38,344 nucleotides of DNA. Origin: a virus. The stretch spans positions 1 to 38,344 of the IMG/VR virus record IMGVR_UViG_3300029922_000165; one strand, written 5' to 3'. Under the pieces are notes generated by a model. The model was not told the origin of the DNA. It saw only the letters and a program-made list of their open reading frames with translations, and did no database searches. Numbering within the stretch: the first letter of the stretch is position 1; every line of letters begins with the position of its first letter. The position numbers and the translations under genes are program-made. Below are positions 715 to 36,927 of the stretch, in pieces.

Positions 715-3690
715 ATGCGGGCGGGGAGGGGGGAGATCATCGTTGACTCGTTTGCCGGCGGCGGCGGAGCTTCGCTCGGCATAGAGCGTGCGATCGGGCG
801 TTCGCCCGACATCGCGATCAACCATGACGAGGCGGCGATCGCGATGCACGCCGCCAATCATCCGGCGACGCGGCATCTGCAGCACAATGTCTGGAAGGTC
901 GATCCGTTGGCGGCGACGGGCGGCGCGCCGGTCGGGCTGATGTGGGCGTCGCCCGATTGTTTCCCGGCCGGGTCGCTCGTCCTGACGCCGGCCGGCTACG
1001 CGCCTATCGAGGAAATTGAAGTCGGCGACCTCGTGCTGACGCACAAAGGCCGATGGCGGCTGGTGACGGAGACGAGCAGCGCGCAGCGCCCGTTGGTCAC
1101 GCTACGCGGTCACGGACACCCTGGCTTGACGCTGAGCGTCGAGCATCCCGTTTGGGCGCGCCGTCGGCTGGACGTGTGGTCCAGCACGCCCCCGCGCGGC
1201 TATCGACGCTACCTTGATATGGCGGAATGGACGCCGGCCGCAATGCTCGACAAGGGCTGGTATTGGGCGTCGCCCGTCTCCTTCCCGCAAGCTGAGATCC
1301 CGGAAGTCGGAGGCCGAGGTTTTCCGCTCGACCTTCGCCTGCTGTGGCTCGCAGGTCGCTATCTCGGCGATGGCTGGACGCGTTTGACGGATACGCGGGC
1401 AGAAGTCGTCATCACCTGCGGCAAGCATGAAGTCGAGGGCTTGCGCTCTCGACTGTCCGTCTGGCCACGCGAGGGTGCGCGATCCGGACCGGGCGAGTTG
1501 ACGTGGCATGAGCGCGCGACCGGCACGGCCTACCAGTTCACCGCGAATCATCGCGGTCTCGTCGAGTGGTTGCGCGAGCATTTTGGCCATCGCGCGGAGA
1601 GTAAGCGCATTCCCGGATGGGCGCTTGGCCTGCCTGAACAGCAGAAAGAGGCGCTGGTCGCCGGTTATCTCTCGGCGGACGGCTGGCGAGCCGAGACGTT
1701 TTCGGAATGCCGAACGGTCTCGGCGGCCTTGGCCTTCGGCATGAAGGCGTTGCTCGGCGGCCTCGGCAAAGTCGTAATAGTCCACAAGGGCGCGAACGGC
1801 TCAAAAATCGAGGGGCGAGAAGTCGCCGCGCGGCCGATCTACATGCTGCGCTGGCGGCACGTAGGCGACGCCGCACACGAGCAGGTGTTCCGTGAAGACC
1901 TGCACCATTGGGCGCCGATCCGCGAGCAGATCGACGACGGGCTGTTCGGCCAAGTGTTCAACATCGGTGTGGACGAAGACGAGAGCTACGTCGTCGAGGG
2001 CGTCGTCGTCCACAACTGCAAACATTTCTCGAAGGCTAAGGGCGGCAAGCCGGTCGCGCGCAATATTCGCGATCTCGCCTGGGTGGTGGTGAGCTGGGCC
2101 CGCCAGGTGCGGCCGCGCGTGATCTGCCTCGAGAATGTCGAGGAGTTCCGCACCTGGGGGCCGCTCAACGTCGAAAACCGGCCGGACCCCAAGCGCCGGG
2201 GCGAAACGTTCCGGCGCTGGGTCGGCGAGCTGCACCGGCTCGGCTACCGGGTCGAGCATCGCGAATTGCGAGCCTGCGACTATGGCGCGCCGACGATCCG
2301 CAAACGGCTGTTCCTGATCGCGCGCTGTGACGGCTTGCCGATCGTCTGGCCGAAGCCTTCGCATGGCGATCCCAAGAGCGCGGACGTGAAAGCCGGCAGG
2401 CTGAAGCCGTGGCGAACCGCGGCCGAGATCATCGATTGGTCGCGGCCGTGCCCGTCGATCTTTCTGACGGCGCAAGAGGCGCGCGCGCTTGGCGTCAAGC
2501 GGCCGTTGGCGGAAGCAACCATGGCAAGGATCGCTAAGGGCGTGAAGCGCTATGTGCTCGACGCGGCCGAGCCGTTCGTGGTGACGATCAACCATAGCGG
2601 CGAGGGTTTCCGCGGGCAGGGGCTTGACGAACCGTTCCGCACGGTCGCGGCGGCTCGCGATGCGCATGGCCTTGTCGCGCCGGTGTTCGCCTACGGCCAG
2701 CAGGGCGGCGCGGTGCGCGACGCGCAATCGCCGATGAGCACGGTGACCGCGTCGGCGAAGGATACGAACGTGCTGATTGCGCCGCACCTGATGACGATGC
2801 GCAACGCGCAGAAGCCCTCCCTCGGCGCAAGCGAGCCGACGCATACGATCACCTCTGGCGGCGCGCATCTGAACCTCGTCGCGGCGCATCTGACCAAGTT
2901 CAATACGGGCAGCGTCGGCTCCGGCCTCGACGAGCCCGCGCCCACGGTGACGGCCAATTCGTTTCTGCAGCGGCCGGGCGGGGCGGCTCCGATGGGAATC
3001 GTCTCGGCGCATTGCAGCGCCTATTATGGCGACGGTGACGGGTCGACGGACCGCAGCGCGCCGGCCGACGAACCGCTGCGGACCGTGACGACGGAAAATC
3101 GTCATGCGGTCGTCGCGGCCTTCCTCGCCCAGCACAATAGCGGCGTCGTTGGGCATGAAGCGCGCGACCCGGTGTCGACCGTGACGCAGACAGGTTCGCA
3201 TCAGGCGGTCGTCTCGGCGGGGCTCATGAGCCTCAAAGGTTCGGAACGGCGCGGGGCGTCTATCGAGACGCCGCATGCGACGGTTACGGCGCAAGGCTGT
3301 CACAGCGCGGACGTGCGGGCCTTCCTGGTCAAATATTACGGCGAGGGTGGACAGGATCAGGCCGCGGGCGAGCCGCTGCACACCATTCCGACCCGCGACC
3401 GGTTCGGGCTCGTGACGATCGCCGGCGAGGTCTACGAGATCGCCGACATCGGCATGCGGATGCTGACGCCGCGCGAGCTGTTCCGCGCGCAGGGATTCCC
3501 CGATTCCTACGACATCACGACGGGGCCCGGCGGCCGGCGGCTGACGCAGGCCGAGCAGATCGGCCGTTGCGGCAATTCCGTCTGCCCGGATCTCGCCGAG
3601 GCGATCGTTGCGGCCAATTATCGCGCCGCCGACGCGAGGGATTTTCCGGAACGGGAGTTCGGGCCGCTGTTTGTCGGGGCGGCGGAATGA
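715..3690 (+). CDS. DNA (cytosine-5)-methyltransferase, intein-containing
   Basis: This enzyme transfers a methyl group from S-adenosylmethionine to cytosine C5. The 991-residue precursor has motif I (SFAGGGGAS, 12-20), the ENV motif VI (473-475), motif VIII (GAPTIRKRLFLIA, about 524-536) and the motif X region beginning GNSV (953-956). Motif IV with its catalytic cysteine is split by an intein at residues 82-434. Splicing would join SPD to CKHFSKAKGG and leave a protein of about 638 residues. Between motif VIII and the C-terminal motifs the target-recognition region is greatly enlarged by eight repeats (about 626-904). The start ATG is one base after the stop of the HTH-like gene, and the stop overlaps the DnaA-like gene (ATGA). 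The likely role is modification of phage DNA against host restriction. Target sequence cannot be predicted. Confidence 0.93.
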   Translation: MRAGRGEIIVDSFAGGGGASLGIERAIGRSPDIAINHDEAAIAMHAANHPATRHLQHNVWKVDPLAATGGAPVGLMWASPDCFPAGSLVLTPAGYAPIEEIEVGDLVLTHKGRWRLVTETSSAQRPLVTLRGHGHPGLTLSVEHPVWARRRLDVWSSTPPRGYRRYLDMAEWTPAAMLDKGWYWASPVSFPQAEIPEVGGRGFPLDLRLLWLAGRYLGDGWTRLTDTRAEVVITCGKHEVEGLRSRLSVWPREGARSGPGELTWHERATGTAYQFTANHRGLVEWLREHFGHRAESKRIPGWALGLPEQQKEALVAGYLSADGWRAETFSECRTVSAALAFGMKALLGGLGKVVIVHKGANGSKIEGREVAARPIYMLRWRHVGDAAHEQVFREDLHHWAPIREQIDDGLFGQVFNIGVDEDESYVVEGVVVHNCKHFSKAKGGKPVARNIRDLAWVVVSWARQVRPRVICLENVEEFRTWGPLNVENRPDPKRRGETFRRWVGELHRLGYRVEHRELRACDYGAPTIRKRLFLIARCDGLPIVWPKPSHGDPKSADVKAGRLKPWRTAAEIIDWSRPCPSIFLTAQEARALGVKRPLAEATMARIAKGVKRYVLDAAEPFVVTINHSGEGFRGQGLDEPFRTVAAARDAHGLVAPVFAYGQQGGAVRDAQSPMSTVTASAKDTNVLIAPHLMTMRNAQKPSLGASEPTHTITSGGAHLNLVAAHLTKFNTGSVGSGLDEPAPTVTANSFLQRPGGAAPMGIVSAHCSAYYGDGDGSTDRSAPADEPLRTVTTENRHAVVAAFLAQHNSGVVGHEARDPVSTVTQTGSHQAVVSAGLMSLKGSERRGASIETPHATVTAQGCHSADVRAFLVKYYGEGGQDQAAGEPLHTIPTRDRFGLVTIAGEVYEIADIGMRMLTPRELFRAQGFPDSYDITTGPGGRRLTQAEQIGRCGNSVCPDLAEAIVAANYRAADARDFPEREFGPLFVGAAE
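958..2016 (+). mobile_element. Intein with LAGLIDADG homing endonuclease
   Basis: This in-frame element encodes 353 residues (82-434 of the precursor). It starts with Cys followed by a typical block A (CFPAGSLVLTP, then IEEIEVGDLVLT). A block B-like SVEHPVW has the conserved His at intein position 63, with Ser where Thr is usual. Two endonuclease motifs, LAGRYLGDG (131-139) and LVAGYLSADG (233-242), mark a dodecapeptide homing endonuclease. Block F reads VFNIGVDEDESYVV, and the end is VVVHN followed by Cys+1. All splicing residues (Cys1, block B His, penultimate His, terminal Asn, Cys+1) are present, so it is probably active. Cys+1 (codon 2017-2019) is the methyltransferase's own catalytic cysteine, so the enzyme should be dead until splicing occurs. 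Whether the endonuclease still cuts is unknown. Confidence 0.93.
2590..3426 (+). repeat. Eight degenerate ~35-residue repeats in the methyltransferase
   Basis: The target-recognition region is made of about eight tandem units of 31-41 residues. Each carries an acidic-Pro turn followed by a T(V/I)T-like strand, a polar or His-containing loop and a hydrophobic (V)VxAxL-type strand, for example DEPLRTVTTENRHAVVAAFL and EPLHTIPTRDRFGLVTIAG. The units have diverged strongly, so the DNA is not an obvious tandem repeat. They may form a repeated beta structure that recognises one or several DNA targets; that is inference. Confidence 0.75.
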
Positions 3691-27939: not shown

Positions 27940-29790
27940 ATGACCAACCCGGCCTATGGTTTTATCATCAACGATCTCTATTCCGGGCCGCTGCCGGTGG
28001 TGGCGGGCGATTTCTCGGTGATCGGCCTGTTGCTGCCCGCCGACGACGCGGACCCGACGACGTTCCCGCTGAATACGCCGGTCGCCTTCAACTCGAGCGA
28101 CCCGACCGTGCTCGCCAAGGTTGGCACCGGCGATTTCTCGAACGCGCTCGCCTCGATCAACAACCAGCTCGCCGCCTGGCAATCGGCGGCGACGGTCGTC
28201 GCGGTGCTCGTGCAGCGCGGCGGCTCGATGTCCCAGACGATCGCCAACCTCGTCGGCTCCGAGGATGCCGGCACGGGCCTCTATGCGTTCAAGCAGGCCG
28301 GGGCGCTGACGACGTTCATCCCGCGGCTGATCGGCTCGCCCGGCTATACCGGCGTGACGACCAGCAGCGGCGGCTCGACCGGCGTGGCCAGCGCCAAGCA
28401 CGGCGGCTTTGTCGGCGGCGGCGCGCTCACCCTGGGCTCGCCGGCCTATCTCAGCGGGGTTGCGGCGGGCGTCTACAAGGTCGTGTGCATCGGCGGGACC
28501 TTCACGGCCACCGCGGCGGCCAAGAGCGGCAACACCGGCAACGGCGTCATCACCATGGGTTCGCCCTCGACCGCCGTCGGCGCGGTCGCTGGCCTCTATC
28601 GGGCGACCTGCATCGCGACGGCGACCAACGGCGGCACGTTCGCCGTGCAGGATCCGACCGGCGAGATCATCGGCGTCGCCAGCGTGGGCGCGGCGTTCTC
28701 CGGGCCGGTGAAATTCACCATCGCCGACGGCGCGACCGACTTCGCGCTCGGCGATACGTTTCTCATCACGTCAGCGGCCTCGGTGCCCGCCGGCGGCGGC
28801 GTGTTCTCGGTCACCACGCCGGCGGGCGCGGCGCTCGCCAATGCGACGGTCGGCTCAGCCTATGCGACGCAGGTCGCGTTCACCATCGCGGCCAGCGGGA
28901 CGGATTTCGCGATCGGCGACGAATTCGACCTGACGGTGACGATCGCCGGCGGTCAGACGATCGCCAACCCGCTGTGTGCAGCGCTGCCGGCCGTCTGCGC
29001 CTCGCTGCTGGCGGTCGCCTTCGTCGGATCGGCGGGCGACGGCAACATCACCAACACGCTGCTCTGGCGCCAGACGCTCAACAGCGACCGGCTCTATCTC
29101 AGCGACGCCTGGGTCATTCCGGGCTCGGGCGTCGGCTATGCCGACGGCGTCGCGGAGGCGCTGGGCGCGCAGGTCGCGGTCGACGCGCAGCATGCCGGCA
29201 TTCCCGGCTGGTCGATCTCCGGCCAGCAGATCCAGGGCATCGGCGGCCTGAAGAACGTCTATACGTTCAGCCTGACGGATGGCGCGACGCAGGGACAGGA
29301 GCTGCTGACCAATCAGGTCAGCGTGATCGAGCCCGGCGCGATCGGCTCCGACACCGCGATCGCCTCGGCGGGCTATACCTGGGCGGGCGTCTGGAATTCC
29401 AGCACCAACCCGCTGATGTGGTTCCTCAACAAACGGCGCATGCGCGATTACGTGAACCTCGCGCTGGTCAAGACGCTGCGGCTGCGGCTCGGCGTCGACA
29501 ATGTGACGCCGCATGATGTGCAGGCGGTGCTGAACGACATGACGGTGCTCGGCTCCTATCTGCTCTCGAAGCAGATCAGCATCGGCTTTGCGGTGCAGTT
29601 CCTGCCGAGCCTGAACTCGCCGAGCCAGCTGCAGCAGGGCCAGTTCGTCGTCAATTTCAGCGACGAGACGCCCGCGCCGATCACGCAGATCACCATCAAT
29701 TCGGACGACGATCCGGACGCGCTGACGGTGGAGCTGCAGACCATCGTGGCGCAGGCCAACACGCTCGCGCCGCAATATCTGACGGCGTAA
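27940..29790 (+). CDS. FI: Tail sheath protein with nested inserted domains
   Basis: A 616-residue contractile-tail sheath protein (P2 gpFI type). The N-terminal part (YGFIINDLYSGPLPV, later TIANLVGSEDAGTGLYAFKQ) and the C-terminal part (LLWRQTLNSDRLYLSDAW, MWFLNKRRMRDYVNLALV, then QFLPSLNSPSQLQQGQF) fit the sheath family. Residues about 139-336 are extra: two homologous beta units, one apparently inserted in the other (see finding). CAGGAG stands 9 bases before ATG 27940. It is followed by the tail tube gene, as in P2. The added part would sit on the outer surface of the sheath and could act as a decoration or adhesion domain. Confidence 0.9.
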   Translation: MTNPAYGFIINDLYSGPLPVVAGDFSVIGLLLPADDADPTTFPLNTPVAFNSSDPTVLAKVGTGDFSNALASINNQLAAWQSAATVVAVLVQRGGSMSQTIANLVGSEDAGTGLYAFKQAGALTTFIPRLIGSPGYTGVTTSSGGSTGVASAKHGGFVGGGALTLGSPAYLSGVAAGVYKVVCIGGTFTATAAAKSGNTGNGVITMGSPSTAVGAVAGLYRATCIATATNGGTFAVQDPTGEIIGVASVGAAFSGPVKFTIADGATDFALGDTFLITSAASVPAGGGVFSVTTPAGAALANATVGSAYATQVAFTIAASGTDFAIGDEFDLTVTIAGGQTIANPLCAALPAVCASLLAVAFVGSAGDGNITNTLLWRQTLNSDRLYLSDAWVIPGSGVGYADGVAEALGAQVAVDAQHAGIPGWSISGQQIQGIGGLKNVYTFSLTDGATQGQELLTNQVSVIEPGAIGSDTAIASAGYTWAGVWNSSTNPLMWFLNKRRMRDYVNLALVKTLRLRLGVDNVTPHDVQAVLNDMTVLGSYLLSKQISIGFAVQFLPSLNSPSQLQQGQFVVNFSDETPAPITQITINSDDDPDALTVELQTIVAQANTLAPQYLTA

Positions 29791-29829: not shown

Positions 29830-30366
29830 ATGGCGACGATTTTCGTGCCCGAGGCCCTCAACCTGTTCGTGACGGACACCGGGCCGGACAATTCCAAGCA
29901 CCTGGTGATCACCGAGACGACGCTGCCGAAGCTCGAGGAAAAGACCTTCGAGCATCACCCCGGCGGCGGCATCGGCGCGGTCGAGATCGGCGGGCTCGGC
30001 ATCAATGCGCTGAGCATGGGGTTCAAGCTGATGGGCGTCGACCCCCAGACGCTCGCGCAGTTCGGCCTCGGCGGCACGGGGCAATTGCCGTTCACCGTCT
30101 ATGGCGCGATCCGCGACAAACAGAGCGGCACAGCGATCGAGCTCAAGGCGATCGTCAACGGCCGCCTGACGGAAGTCGATCACGGCGCCTGGAAGCGCGG
30201 CGACGCCGCCGAGCAGACGCACATGATCAAGGAAATCACGATGTATCAGCTCTACTGGAACAAGAAAGAGCTCTACTTCTACGATTTCTATAACTCGACC
30301 TGGCGCGTCAACGGCGCGAACCAGCAGAGCGACGTGCAGTCGATCCTGCGCATCGCGGGGGCGTGA
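29830..30366 (+). CDS. FII: Major tail tube protein
   Basis: A 178-residue protein of the P2 gpFII tube family. Rings of it form the rigid inner tube driven through the cell envelope when the sheath contracts. The N-terminus EALNLFVTDTGPDNSKHLVI, then TLPKLEEKTFEHHPGGGIGA (about 35-54), GLGINALSMGFKLMG, and the long strand KEITMYQLYWNKKELYFYDF, are typical. GAGGA precedes ATG 29830. Size is normal for the family. Confidence 0.92.
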   Translation: MATIFVPEALNLFVTDTGPDNSKHLVITETTLPKLEEKTFEHHPGGGIGAVEIGGLGINALSMGFKLMGVDPQTLAQFGLGGTGQLPFTVYGAIRDKQSGTAIELKAIVNGRLTEVDHGAWKRGDAAEQTHMIKEITMYQLYWNKKELYFYDFYNSTWRVNGANQQSDVQSILRIAGA

Positions 30367-30374
30367 GCGGCGGC

Positions 30375-30746
30375 TCAGTTTCGAGACGGCGTCGAGGCGG
30401 GGAGCGAGGCGGCTTTGGCGAGCGCCTTGCTCAACTGGCCCGCCGCCATTTTCGAGATATGGAACTCGATAGTGGGAATGTGCGGCGTTTTCATCGCCAG
30501 CGCCAACAACTCCCCATCGACCACGCCAACCGCGCATGTCGGATCCTTTATCGTCAGACCCGGTTTTTGCAGGTGCAGCGGAGCTTCCGTGTCCGGAGGC
30601 AGATCTTCCAGGGCCTTCAGCAGCAGCGCCACAACGCCAAACGTTTCTCGTCGGCTTAGGGGAATCGCCGCGCTGGCCCCGTTGGCGTCCGCTATGCGAA
30701 ATTCGACCGCTGCGCCCGATGTGCGGACCGTCACTTGCGATTTCAT
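30375..30746 (-). CDS. Unknown third gene of the leftward brnTA operon
   Basis: A 123-residue protein encoded leftward; its start overlaps the end of the brnA-like gene by four bases. ATG 30746 was preferred to a longer frame, since the longer one would run deep through brnA. The N-terminal half is beta-rich (SQVTVRTSGAAVEFRIAD), the middle helical (ETFGVVALLLKALEDLP), followed by a strand part containing DPTCAVGVVDGELLALA. There is no membrane segment or known family. Co-transcription with brnTA suggests a helper, regulator or second effector of the module; that is inference only. Confidence 0.55.
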   Translation of the reverse strand: MKSQVTVRTSGAAVEFRIADANGASAAIPLSRRETFGVVALLLKALEDLPPDTEAPLHLQKPGLTIKDPTCAVGVVDGELLALAMKTPHIPTIEFHISKMAAGQLSKALAKAASLPASTPSRN

Positions 30747-31195
30747 GGGGCGATTTTCCTGGTGAGTTTGGGGCGGCCGCGGGTGGCGGGCGCGGATTTG
30801 AAGCGCTTGATCCCTTCCGGCGTTGAAAGGCCTGGCGCGTCGTCTACAGGCGACGGCGCGACGCTTTCCAGCGCCTCGCTCATCCGCGCTCGCCAACGCT
30901 CGCCGCCGCTGGCTTTGAACCGAGCAATGGCTTCCGGCGACAGGCGGAGGGTGACGGGCTGCCTGGGGGCGTCGAGCTTCGGACGCCCGCGCGTGCGTTT
31001 GATGTTCGCGTACAAGTCCGGGAAGACCTCACGGAAAGGCTTGGCCGTCGCCATTTCCTCCTCGGTCAGCTCGGGATTGTCGGGATCCTGGGCGATGCCG
31101 GCCTGAATGCGGGCCTCGTCCTCGTCCGTGAGCGGCGGCTGCGCCTTGATGGCCTGGCGAAGCGCGCGATGTTCGGGGCTGATCTTGCGGGTCAT
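30743..31195 (-). CDS. brnA: BrnA-like antitoxin
   Basis: A 150-residue protein of the BrnA antitoxin family. The N-terminal part has DPDNPELTEEEMATAKPF, common in this family. The ribbon-helix-helix DNA-binding part is QPVTLRLSPEAIARFKASGG with ERWRARMSEAL (about 78-109). BrnA binds BrnT and represses the shared operon. The motif TRGRPKL appears twice (about 68-74 and 137-143), the second near the C-terminus, an unusual duplication. Gene order toxin first, antitoxin second is the canonical brnTA order, with a four-base overlap. The protein is longer than the usual BrnA of about 100 residues; the extra C-terminal part is basic. Confidence 0.82.
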   Translation of the reverse strand: MTRKISPEHRALRQAIKAQPPLTDEDEARIQAGIAQDPDNPELTEEEMATAKPFREVFPDLYANIKRTRGRPKLDAPRQPVTLRLSPEAIARFKASGGERWRARMSEALESVAPSPVDDAPGLSTPEGIKRFKSAPATRGRPKLTRKIAP

Positions 31196-31440
31196 AGGAG
31201 CTTCCTTTCCTTCCGACTGGCCGGCCGCATGGAGATGACCGAAATGGCTTCCGCGCCCAACGGCTGAAAGACGACGGCGGCGATCGTGACGCCCTTGAGC
31301 ATCGCGACAGCGACGAGACGACCCTGGCGGGAGCGAACAAAAACGGCGTTGGCGAAGAAATCGAGATCAAGATCGGCGAAGTCCATGCCGTGCTTGGCAA
31401 GGTTCGCCAGCCGCTTGTTTTCGTCCCAAACGATCATCAT
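31192..31440 (-). CDS. brnT: BrnT-like toxin
   Basis: An 82-residue toxin of the BrnT (RelE/ParE-fold) ribonuclease family. Conserved parts are VWDENKRLANLAKHGMDF (residues 4-21) and ISVISMRPASRKE (66-78), which hold the basic and acidic residues typical of the active site. BrnT halts growth by degrading RNA and is neutralised by BrnA. ATG 31440 was chosen over the upstream ATG 31479, since a good -35/-10 pair lies between them and the family starts here. The gene opens a leftward operon within the rightward tail cluster, so it is an inserted accessory module. It may stabilise the prophage or act in superinfection or abortive defence. Confidence 0.83.
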   Translation of the reverse strand: MMIVWDENKRLANLAKHGMDFADLDLDFFANAVFVRSRQGRLVAVAMLKGVTIAAVVFQPLGAEAISVISMRPASRKERKLL

Positions 31441-31490
31441 TGGAATAGTCGTACACGGTAAATGAGTAGCCGTCAACATTTGCGTGTACG
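31441..31490 (-). promoter_or_regulatory. brnTA promoter with flanking inverted repeat
   Basis: On the minus strand, TTGACG (31476-31471) and TACGAC (31453-31448) stand 17 bases apart, a good -35/-10 pair. Transcription would begin at about 31441, next to the ATG at 31440, giving a leaderless mRNA. CGTACACG (31450-31457) and CGTGTACG (31483-31490) are perfect inverted copies that flank the -35 element, one of them overlapping the -10. That is a likely BrnA operator. Confidence 0.6.
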
Positions 31491-31929: not shown

Positions 31930-32033
31930 TCGGCCGCGTCGCGGGCTGGGGCCTCGCCGAGGTGATGGCGATGTTCTGGGATGATTTCGTGGCCGAATGC
32001 GCGGAGTGCCGGCGCATCGAGGGGTGGGACTGA
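31561..32033 (+). CDS. gpE+E' frameshift product
   Basis: Reading begins as gpE, shifts -1 on T_TTT_TTG (31857-31863) and continues to the TGA at 32031-32033. The fusion is about 157 residues; the last 56 come from the -1 frame and include WRNYRIIVGRVAGWGLAEVM and FWDDFVAECAECRRIEGWD. The second frame has no good start of its own in that position. Its stop overlaps the tape measure start (TGATG), the same arrangement as P2 E, E' and T. Confidence 0.75.
31857..31863 (+). other. Programmed -1 frameshift site T_TTT_TTG
   Basis: The heptamer is in the zero frame of gpE as GAT-TTT-TTG, so both tRNAs can slip back by one base. The same heptamer is used by P2 for E/E'. The next 30 bases are GC-rich and could form structure, but no clear pseudoknot was found by eye. 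Confidence 0.8.
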
Positions 32034-34798
32034 TGGCGAGCCTGACGGAAGCTCTGACGATTGCGTTGATCGACAACGTCTCCAAGCCTGCGCGCACCGT
32101 CGCGCAGGCGCTGGCCGACGTCGAGCGGCGCACGAAGGGCCTCGAGAAGGCGCTGGCGGGATCGGGCGCTCCCGATCGCCTGGTAAAGGATCTCTCGAAG
32201 CTCAAACTCACCGTCGGCGACATCAACGCGGTCAGCGACGCCTTCAAGAAATTCGCGGCGGCGAACGGGCTCGCCGCCGATTCCACGAAATGGACCAAAG
32301 AACAGACGGCGGCGTTCAAGACTTGGAAGTCGCAGACGATCGGCGCGCTTCGCGAGGTCGAGCGGGAGCAGCGCGCCTATAGCGAGGCGATGAAGAAAGC
32401 GGTGGCGACTCCCCCGCCGATGCAGGCTCGAACTATGGCGCGCGCCGGCGGCCTCGTCGAGCGCGGCGGCCCCAGCCTGGCGGCGGGCATCCTCGGCGCT
32501 TATGTGGCGCATAGCACGGCGCATTACGCCAAGGATTCGATCGAGCTCTACCGCGAATTCGACAAGGAGCGGCGCTTCGGCAAGGCGGTGATGAAGCTCA
32601 CCGACGCCGAGCAGGCCCCGCTGGTCGAGCAGGCGATCCGCCTCGGCGGCACGACGAAATACAACGACATCCAGGTGCTGGAGTCGCAGCGCGAACTGGC
32701 GGCGCGCGGCCTGCAGCGCGACCAGGTGATGGGGTTGATGAAGAGTGCGACCGACCTCGGCCAAGCGCTCTCGCTCGACCTGCCCGATGCGGTCCGCCAG
32801 ATGGAAGGCGCGATCTTCGGCTTCAAGAAGCCGATGGACACGCTCGATCACGCGATGGCTTCGGCCAAACAGACGGCCGACGTGCAGGTGACGGCGGCCA
32901 AGCTCTCCGGCATGACGCCGGAGGATTTGACCCAGCTTTACAAGTATGGCGCGACGCCGGCGCGGCTCGCCGGGGTTTCCGAGGCGACGCTGCTCGGCTT
33001 CGGCGCGATCTCGAAAAAGTCCAATATGGGCGGCGACGAGGCCGGCGTCGCGTTCCGCGCGTTGATGGCGGCCGCGACCTCGCCGACGCGCGGCGCGAAG
33101 ACGGCGCTGCGCGCCGCGGGGCTCAATTACGCCGACTATCAGAAGGCTCCTGACCATCTCGAGCTCGCGCCCTTCGTCGGCGACGTCGCCGAGCGTTACG
33201 GCGTCAAGCTGGACGCGTCCGCGCAAAAGGCGCTCGGGAAAGTCTTCACTGACAAAGCGCTGATCTCCGACCCGGCGAAGTTCATGCCGGCGGTGATGGC
33301 GACGCTTGGCGACGTGCTCGGCGGCTCGGACGCCAAATCCAAAAAGTCGATCGCCGGCGCGGCCATGGCTTATCTCAAGGCCTCGATGCAGGGCGTCGAC
33401 GTCAATGCCCTGATCGTCGACTTGATGAAGAAGCTGCCGGGCAACCTGGCGCTCGCCAATGCGATTTTCGGAGCGAAACAGGGCGGTCGCATTTCGTCCG
33501 CGCTCGGCGACCCCGAGACGTTCAAGCGGTTGATCGACGAGATCCAGAACGATTCCCCCGATCGCGCAAGCAATGTCGCCAATGAGCGCATGTCCGGATT
33601 CGATGGCGCGATGTCCCGCCTCGAGGGCTCGCTCAAGAATTTGGAGACCGCGTTCGGCCGCTCGATCGACGGCGGAGGAGACGGCGGCGCGCTGACCATG
33701 CTGGCCGACACGGCGGGCAAGGTGACTCAGGCCTTCGCGGAACTGCCGGGCCCGGTGATCCGCAGCGTGGCGGAAATTGCCGCGCTGGGCGCAGCCTTTG
33801 CGGGCTTGAAGGGCGTCGAGGCGCTGATGGGCGGCTTTGGCCTTAAGAGCTCTGCGGTCGCGCTGACAGGCGCTGCGGAGGCTCTGACTCTATCAGCAGG
33901 GCGCATCGCCGAGGGCGGGGCAGTTGGCGCGCTGGCGGGCGGCGGCGCGGCGCTCGCCGAGGGCGCGGCGATAGGTCTCGGCGGTCGTTTGTTGATGCTG
34001 GTTTCGCGCCTGACGGCCGTGGGCGTGGCGGCTTCCGTGGCTGATGCGGCGCTCGAATTGTTCGCGCCGCAACTGGCGGCGTCGATCCACGACGCCGTGG
34101 GCGCTGCGCTCGCATCGGCCGCCAAGGCGGTCAAGGATTACGTCTCGCCGCCGGGGCCGGCCGCACGCCGGCCGGCGGATGCTGAGGACCGCAAGGCTGA
34201 CGCCGATGAGGTGGAATACCGCCGAAGGCAGGAGAATATTCGCAACGGCAAAGAGGGCACTGTCTACGAAATAAATGCCAAAATCGCGGAGGTCGAGAAG
34301 CGGCTGAAGGCGTGGAGTGTCGAGCCGGTGAGGTCGCCAAAACTCGACGATGTCGTGCTCAACCAAGCCTACGCCCATCAGCGCGAGGCCACGAGCTCGA
34401 CCGTTGGCTCGGTCTACACGTTCGACCCTGAGCGCATGCGCGGCAACGCTATGAGCCGTCCGCTGACCGAGCCGCCCGCGCCGCTCTGGGCCCAGCCCGG
34501 ATATGATTTCGCCGACGGTCATCCCGCGCCCGACGCTTCGCATCTCAAACCCTCCGTCGACGCGGGCGCGCTTGATGACGTGACCAGCAAAGCGGCCGAG
34601 GCGCTGGCCGCGATCGGCGGCCTGACGCGGCCTGTGACGGTGCAGGTCGATACGTCGGCGATCGATGCGGCGATTGCGAAAGTGCAGTCGCTGCTCTCCA
34701 AATTGTCGGGCCTCGGCGGCGGCGCGTCGGCGATGTCGTCCTCATATGGCGGGGCGCAGCGCGGCGGGTTCACGTCGCAAGGCATGCCGGGGCAATAA
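32033..34798 (+). CDS. T: Tape measure protein
   Basis: A 921-residue tail tape measure protein of P2 gpT type; its length sets the tail length. It begins MASLTEALTIALIDNVSKPA with a long helical charged region, then GPSLAAGILGAYVAHSTAH (hydrophobic), and a conserved middle (about 290-490) with LTQLYKYGATPARLAGVSEA and FGAISKKSNMGGDEAGVAFR, typical of phage tape measures. A further hydrophobic Ala/Gly-rich part (about 610-690) may insert into the host membrane during DNA delivery. The start overlaps the E' stop. It is encoded just before gpU. Confidence 0.93.
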   Translation: MASLTEALTIALIDNVSKPARTVAQALADVERRTKGLEKALAGSGAPDRLVKDLSKLKLTVGDINAVSDAFKKFAAANGLAADSTKWTKEQTAAFKTWKSQTIGALREVEREQRAYSEAMKKAVATPPPMQARTMARAGGLVERGGPSLAAGILGAYVAHSTAHYAKDSIELYREFDKERRFGKAVMKLTDAEQAPLVEQAIRLGGTTKYNDIQVLESQRELAARGLQRDQVMGLMKSATDLGQALSLDLPDAVRQMEGAIFGFKKPMDTLDHAMASAKQTADVQVTAAKLSGMTPEDLTQLYKYGATPARLAGVSEATLLGFGAISKKSNMGGDEAGVAFRALMAAATSPTRGAKTALRAAGLNYADYQKAPDHLELAPFVGDVAERYGVKLDASAQKALGKVFTDKALISDPAKFMPAVMATLGDVLGGSDAKSKKSIAGAAMAYLKASMQGVDVNALIVDLMKKLPGNLALANAIFGAKQGGRISSALGDPETFKRLIDEIQNDSPDRASNVANERMSGFDGAMSRLEGSLKNLETAFGRSIDGGGDGGALTMLADTAGKVTQAFAELPGPVIRSVAEIAALGAAFAGLKGVEALMGGFGLKSSAVALTGAAEALTLSAGRIAEGGAVGALAGGGAALAEGAAIGLGGRLLMLVSRLTAVGVAASVADAALELFAPQLAASIHDAVGAALASAAKAVKDYVSPPGPAARRPADAEDRKADADEVEYRRRQENIRNGKEGTVYEINAKIAEVEKRLKAWSVEPVRSPKLDDVVLNQAYAHQREATSSTVGSVYTFDPERMRGNAMSRPLTEPPAPLWAQPGYDFADGHPAPDASHLKPSVDAGALDDVTSKAAEALAAIGGLTRPVTVQVDTSAIDAAIAKVQSLLSKLSGLGGGASAMSSSYGGAQRGGFTSQGMPGQ

Positions 34799-36018: not shown

Positions 36019-36153
36019 TCTGTTTTCACGAATGCCGCTCTTGGTCGGGCGGATAAGGCGCGGAAATTCGAGGCTTCATTGGCCCCGGTTCCGCGAACAG
36101 CGGACCCGTGCGCTTCGGGCCGACCAAGGCCGGGCGCCAATGGAGACTATGTC

Positions 36154-36927
36154 ATGAATGATGAGGTCACTGTCGATGCCGCGCGGCTGCCAGTCGTCGC
36201 GATCAAGAACGGCGAGGTGCTTGCGGACAGCCGCGATGTCGCTGAATTCTTCGGCAAGAACAACAAGGATGTAATGCGGGCGATCCGTGAATTGATCGCC
36301 AGAGAGCCGGATTTAGGCCAGCGCAATTTTGCGCCGTTCAAAATCAATGACTTAACCGGAGAGACCACCTCTCACTACGAAATGGACCGCCGAGGCTTCA
36401 CGGTTCTCGCCATGGGTTTCACCGGCGAGAAGGCCCTGAAGTGGAAGTTGCGCTATATCGACGCTTTCGAACACATGGAGGCAGAGCTCCGCAATCGGCC
36501 GGCCGTCGATCCGATCCGGGTCCTCAACGACCCCGCCGCCATGCGTGGGTTACTGCTGACCTATTCGGAAAAGGTGTTGGCCCTCGAGAAGGCCAACGCC
36601 GACATGCAACCCAAGGTCGACGCCTTTGCCCGGCTGGCGGAAGCCGAGGGCTCGCTCTGCATCACGGACGCCGCCAAGACGCTTCAAGTTCGCCCGTCGG
36701 ACCTGTTCAAGTTCCTGCGCAGCCATTCCTGGATCTATCGCCGCCCGGCGACGGACCATGACGTGGCCTACCAGTCGAAACTGACCACCGGGCTGATGGA
36801 GCACAAGACGACGACCGTGCATCGGTCGGACGGCTCGGAGAAGATCACCACGCAGGTCCGCGTTACCCCAAAAGGTTTGGCGAGACTTGCGCAAGAATTT
36901 CCTCCTCATCTCCGGTTTGTGGCCTGA
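36154..36927 (+). CDS. Rha/KilAC antirepressor-like regulatory protein
   Basis: A 257-residue protein with two known phage regulatory domains. The N-terminal Rha part (about 15-115) has VVAIKNGEVLADSRDVAEFF, VMRAIRELI and MDRRGFTVLAMGFTGEKALK, which are diagnostic. The C-terminal KilAC/antirepressor part (about 155-257) has AEAEGSLCITDAAKTLQV, LFKFLRSHSWIYRR and QVRVTPKGLARLAQEF. Rha disturbs infection in strains lacking IHF, and KilAC proteins act as antirepressors in phages such as P1 and P22 relatives. Start chosen at ATG 36154 with GGAG upstream. It is placed just before gpD, six bases apart, breaking the X-D order of P2-like tails. Confidence 0.88.
   Translation: MNDEVTVDAARLPVVAIKNGEVLADSRDVAEFFGKNNKDVMRAIRELIAREPDLGQRNFAPFKINDLTGETTSHYEMDRRGFTVLAMGFTGEKALKWKLRYIDAFEHMEAELRNRPAVDPIRVLNDPAAMRGLLLTYSEKVLALEKANADMQPKVDAFARLAEAEGSLCITDAAKTLQVRPSDLFKFLRSHSWIYRRPATDHDVAYQSKLTTGLMEHKTTTVHRSDGSEKITTQVRVTPKGLARLAQEFPPHLRFVA

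Follow-up and report, generated by a model that had tools for sequence, protein, structure and literature searches.

A probable self-nested accessory domain in a contractile phage tail sheath, with related units in head decoration proteins

Repeats in proteins are usually gained in series, and the promiscuous Ig-like domains that phage structural proteins carry, which are mobile and surface-displayed, are usually appended in series too. The type 2 and type 3 contractile sheaths described by Evseev et al. (2022; PMC9230969) carry a beta-rich domain, often Ig-like, within a core formed by the conserved N- and C-terminal parts of the chain; in the portion of that paper used here, such additional domains are located away from the tube in the published models, are in some cases formed by two regions of the chain, and vary between phages. 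The insertion of a homologous domain into itself is not described in that portion, and the word 'nested' is absent from the text of the paper. The sheath encoded by IMG/VR virus record IMGVR_UViG_3300029922_000165 (38,344 nucleotides, analysed whole and referred to here as the window) is of this general type, in that its core contains an extra domain that is missing from its shortest, 430-amino acid relatives.

The sheath gene and its insert

The window protein is a contractile tail sheath. It matches phrog_23 (tail sheath; E 1.4e-27), a family profile made from it and its relatives matches PA0622, the sheath of R2 pyocin, on either side of the insert (E 2.8e-26), and the top-ranking Foldseek hits of its predicted model are sheaths. 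Its neighbours are tail genes, with baseplate parts upstream and the probable tube and the tape measure downstream (Table 1); in L008 and L009 'tail tube' is the name given to the gene directly after the sheath. By profile alignment the N-terminal core corresponds to pyocin sheath residues 7–141, and the insertion point falls, on the pyocin sequence, between PRLLVAPGHSAQQ and AVATAMD. The window sheath has no match to HDPD, the lambda gpD profile.

Table 1. Coordinates of the sheath gene, its parts and neighbouring or related features (positions in the window, save for the last two rows, which are positions in L006 and L007)
Feature	Position	Strand	Remarks
Contractile tail sheath gene	27940..29790	+	616 aa; MTxPxYG start also in relatives
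Sheath core, N-terminal part (residues 1-137)	27940..28350	+	final residues IPRLIGSPGYT
Whole insert (residues 138-342, 205 aa)	28351..28965	+	missing from 430-aa relatives
A1, outer unit, first half (residues 151-184)	28390..28491	+	half-unit HMM, half alignments
A2, inner unit, first half (residues 192-225)	28513..28614	+	half-unit HMM, half alignments
B2, inner unit, second half (residues 230-277)	28627..28770	+	half-unit HMM, half alignments
B1, outer unit, second half (residues 286-333)	28795..28938	+	half-unit HMM, half alignments
Sheath core, C-terminal part	28966..29787	+	first residues NPLCAALPAV
Probable tail tube gene, first after the sheath (judged by position)	29830..30366	+	PHROG label is head closure
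Tape measure gene	31997-34798
Sheath with GGxGYT-type insert, L006	3001-4707
Sheath with GGxGYT-type insert, L007	1911-3392

Three other features of the window were seen in passing. A C5 cytosine DNA methyltransferase with an intein-like interrupting segment lies at 958-2016 (+), inside an open reading frame at 715-3690; the segment (Hint_2 match from residue 82; CFPAGSLV...VVVHN, then C) is placed between SPD and CKHFSKAKGG, which resembles the catalytic-cysteine motif. A BrnT toxin (31192-31479) and BrnA antitoxin (30743-31195) together occupy 30743-31479 (-), between the tube and tape-measure genes, and a Rha/KilAC-type antirepressor gene (36079-36927, +) is located among the tail genes.

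The preliminary description of this locus had read the insert, from a set of short motifs that are indeed found in the window sheath, as a domain nested inside a related one, A1-[A2-B2]-B1. Alignment of the joined outer halves (A1+B1) with the joined inner halves (A2+B2) bears this reading out: the score is 189, as compared with 40.5 +/- 7.1 for shuffles having the same composition as the tested halves (z 20.9; 0 of 2000 shuffles as high). Taken singly, A1 resembles A2 (z 11.9) and B1 resembles B2 (z 13.9), with the A halves against the B halves at background (z -0.5 to 1.2); the order of the insert is therefore A-A-B-B, an order also kept in eleven other distinct sheaths, and judged from their sequences the two outer halves jointly make up one complete unit. 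In both copies homology begins some 15 residues before the GSP motif. The inner unit proposed at about residues 199-284 does exist, with limits that are better set at about 190-282.

The insert is rich in Gly, Ala and Thr, as would be expected of a low-complexity segment without a defined fold whose internal similarity is compositional; the shuffle test contradicts this, however, as do the 49–59% identity of the insert among relatives and the confident strands of the predicted structure, and we reject the notion of such an artefact as having next to no likelihood. In the AlphaFold2 model of the window sheath the insert has pLDDT values mostly of 78–92, with comparable sets of strands along both units; the core, its C-terminal part included, is poorly predicted (pTM 0.40, shallow alignment).

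The A-A-B-B order, taken alone, would also be compatible with a domain-swapped pair in series, with A1 packed against B2 and A2 against B1. Against this, A2-B2 is contiguous, with the short A/B turn found in stand-alone units, and is up to 60% identical to one of them (the decoration unit L054); moreover, units that truly lie in series read A-B-A-B, and are found elsewhere (L080, L095, L097). We consider a swapped pair very unlikely. As the inner unit is the contiguous relative of the stand-alone units, it follows that the outer unit is the split one. Taking these observations together, the sheath very probably carries a nested A1-A2-B2-B1 domain in one of its loops, within which, we infer, A1 is packed on B1 and A2 on B2, and the nested levels stack outward at the surface of the tail.

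Sheaths with none, one or two units

Among relatives gathered by scanning viral contigs as well as prokaryote genomes, we see sheaths of all three classes whose search had been proposed at the outset: with no insert (430-amino acid sheaths L021, L022, L024, L033 and L034), with one uninterrupted A-B unit at the same site (516-amino acid sheaths L020 and L031) and with A-A-B-B (616–623 amino acids, including L004, L005, L014, L015, L016, L029, L043, L045, L051 and L052). One of the nested sheaths (L029) lies on a contig of the sequenced strain Methylosinus sp. Sm6; of 397 genomes from the order of this strain seven gave matches, the full nested cassette being matched in Sm6 only. The two-level form of the sheath is secure, being common to many contigs and to the Sm6 genome.

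In two close relatives (L006 and L007; 64–72% identical overall) the unit is replaced, at the same site, by an unrelated insert of 'GGxGYT' type, which in L007 reads A-B and in L006 A-A-B-B: pieces 1 and 2 of the L006 insert score 84–101 against the A half of L007 and pieces 3 and 4 score 98–127 against its B half, with cross scores of 20–34. The sheath insertion site thus tolerates at least two unrelated domains, and since the insert can be present, absent or replaced among close relatives, it is dispensable for core function. L017 and L018 appear to resemble L006. In sheaths of another type (L055, 1392-3209; L057, 2476-3546) a single A-B unit lies within a GYT-like insert, and two unrelated domains thus appear to be nested one in the other.

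Head decoration proteins, deeper nesting and cassette history

The suggestion that similar units occur in phage decoration proteins was well founded: the A-B unit is common in head decoration proteins of the lambda-D type, as a single unit in gpD-type proteins of many phages (for example Presto and Cy-LDV1) and in nested form in L041, L046, L047, L059, L075, L115, L117 and L119. Pseudomonas phage Ab19 (Abidjanvirus) and Stenotrophomonas phage Bhz54 each encode, next to the tape measure gene, a structural protein with a related unit close to its N-terminus (L010 and L013, both 1336-2607). When isolated phages were searched by tblastn with the nested decoration proteins, single-unit decoration proteins were returned, none of the matches covering the greater part of the query.

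Architectures were read with half-unit HMMs across all fetched loci, about 150 proteins in all. A-B was found 113 times and A-A-B-B 26 times (21 complete open reading frames; some represent the same contig cut differently), followed by AAABBB in L075 and AAAABBBB in L115, both complete, and AAAABBBB again in L113, which is cut by the contig end. There is one case of AAAABBB, the decoration protein L086 (1948-3333; four A and three B halves), and an incomplete, cut protein (L096) reads AAAAAABBB; besides the three serial A-B-A-B proteins named above, a fourth (L069) has one A missed. L115 (E 2.6e-19) and L075 (E 1.8e-21) give lambda gpD matches (HDPD, PF02924) that span the insert, and gpD therefore forms the outermost shell, as the sheath core does in the window.

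These deeper forms bear on a further alternative, in which the A and B halves were duplicated separately, giving two repeat arms in loose balance with no true nesting. The unbalanced L086, and possibly L113 (four A and at least four B halves, the last B being of middle type), speak in its favour, as does the near-identity in DNA of adjacent middle copies (96% for A2/A3 of L115 and 97% for B2/B3 of L113). Separate duplication fits poorly, however, with the lack of any AAB or true ABB protein among the approximately 150 scanned, with the balance of A and B in every complete multi-unit open reading frame other than L086, and with the separation, within the sheath family, of outer from inner units into mainly distinct clades. 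Furthermore, the subtypes of L115, assigned from best matches in L075, L086 and L113, run outer, middle, middle, inner through the A halves and inner, middle, middle, outer through the B halves, a mirror order that nesting predicts. Independent arrays are, on this evidence, unlikely. In L113 further B halves may lie beyond the contig end, and the near-identical middle copies of L115 and L113 fit a later local duplication. Nesting of three or more levels rests on contigs of three metagenomes (3300015370, 3300020171 and 3300025824), in which misassembly is possible because the repeats are near-identical; unless misassembled, L086 and perhaps L113 may be instances where strict one-to-one pairing of A and B fails.

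In the tree of whole nested cassettes, those of the L004 sheath and of the decoration proteins L041 and L047 fall together (99/94), and on two contigs both a sheath and a decoration protein carry the nested cassette (L005 and L041 on 3300035696; L044 and L046 on 3300037222); both observations would fit an exchange of cassettes between virion proteins. In L059 and L119 the inner units cluster with decoration units that occur singly (89/82), as would be expected had a ready-made unit been inserted. The window's own inner unit is placed outside the clade that the other inner units form (98/87); a swap from another source was considered and not kept, since an AU test does not reject a single clade (p 0.256).

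A model for nested growth and its known counterparts

In the mechanism we propose, an accessory beta-domain of about 85 amino acids, made up of halves A and B, would occupy the sheath loop that follows IPRLIGSPGYT, and within its A/B hairpin would lie another whole copy of this domain, the chain passing from the sheath core through A1, A2-B2 and B1 and back into the core. If the two ends of the unit are near each other and the A/B turn is permissive to insertion, as this mechanism supposes, one unit can for that reason sit on the tip of another; each extra level would lengthen a there-and-back stalk, both ends of which stay anchored in the carrier protein. The wider form of this model is a recursive, centre-embedded A^nB^n rule, whereby the domain repeatedly accepts its own copies at the hairpin tip and builds adjustable stalks from within its carrier, a capsid or sheath protein, n ranging from 1 to at least 4; a second, unrelated domain at this site in sheaths would obey the rule as well. 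We regard this generalisation as having an even chance of being correct. Proteins growing by a domain that nests within itself, level on level, with the carrier intact, would follow an unusual rule, and growth of an appendage from mid-chain is itself unusual; such a domain would offer a natural case of a loop able to take in whole domains.

By analogy with the published sheath models, and given the cassette shared with decoration proteins, the insert would be displayed on the virion surface. The close relation of the nested cassettes in sheaths and decoration proteins suggests a job at that surface and not in contraction; most likely the insert is no part of the contraction mechanism, its putative role being that of a dispensable surface accessory, which would either adhere weakly to glycans, of the host or extracellular, or stabilise the virion.

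As to fold, Foldseek lists FlgL (probability 1.00) after the sheaths for the window model; for the four-level L115, of which one of five AlphaFold2 models was fair (pLDDT 72.7, with middle levels at about 40–78), it gives FlgL at 1.00 and the Wzc periplasmic domain at 0.9 or more. For both models these alignments are short, their rmsd exceeds 6 and their TM-scores are low. L115 is also above the cut-off for PF23607, the Wzc periplasmic domain; the 42 units scanned against Pfam gave weak matches only, none above the curated cut-off, and a search of solved structures with the whole sheath, the insert and a profile of the 42 units found nothing significant for the unit. We take the FlgL and Wzc matches to the predicted models as leads on fold, and not as signs of membership.

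Several described systems may be set beside the insert. Lambda gpD-type decoration proteins (PF02924, phrog_49) share with the window sheath the insert alone. The FlgL beta-domain (PDB 5ziz, 5zj0) and the Wzc periplasmic domain (PF23607) are alike by Foldseek, with no PDB match by the sequence profile of the unit. The promiscuous Ig-like domains, to which PMC9230969 refers, are like our unit in being shared between different structural proteins; the Pfam scan gave the unit no Ig-like match above a curated cut-off. In the open-access literature, the general paper on sheath domains (PMC9230969) aside, we found no precedent for nesting, self-insertion or inserts of this kind in sheath or decoration proteins. 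The nested order in the window sheath is thus confirmed; set against that paper, its insert represents a variation on the known 'additional sheath domains' and belongs to a broader A^nB^n pattern.
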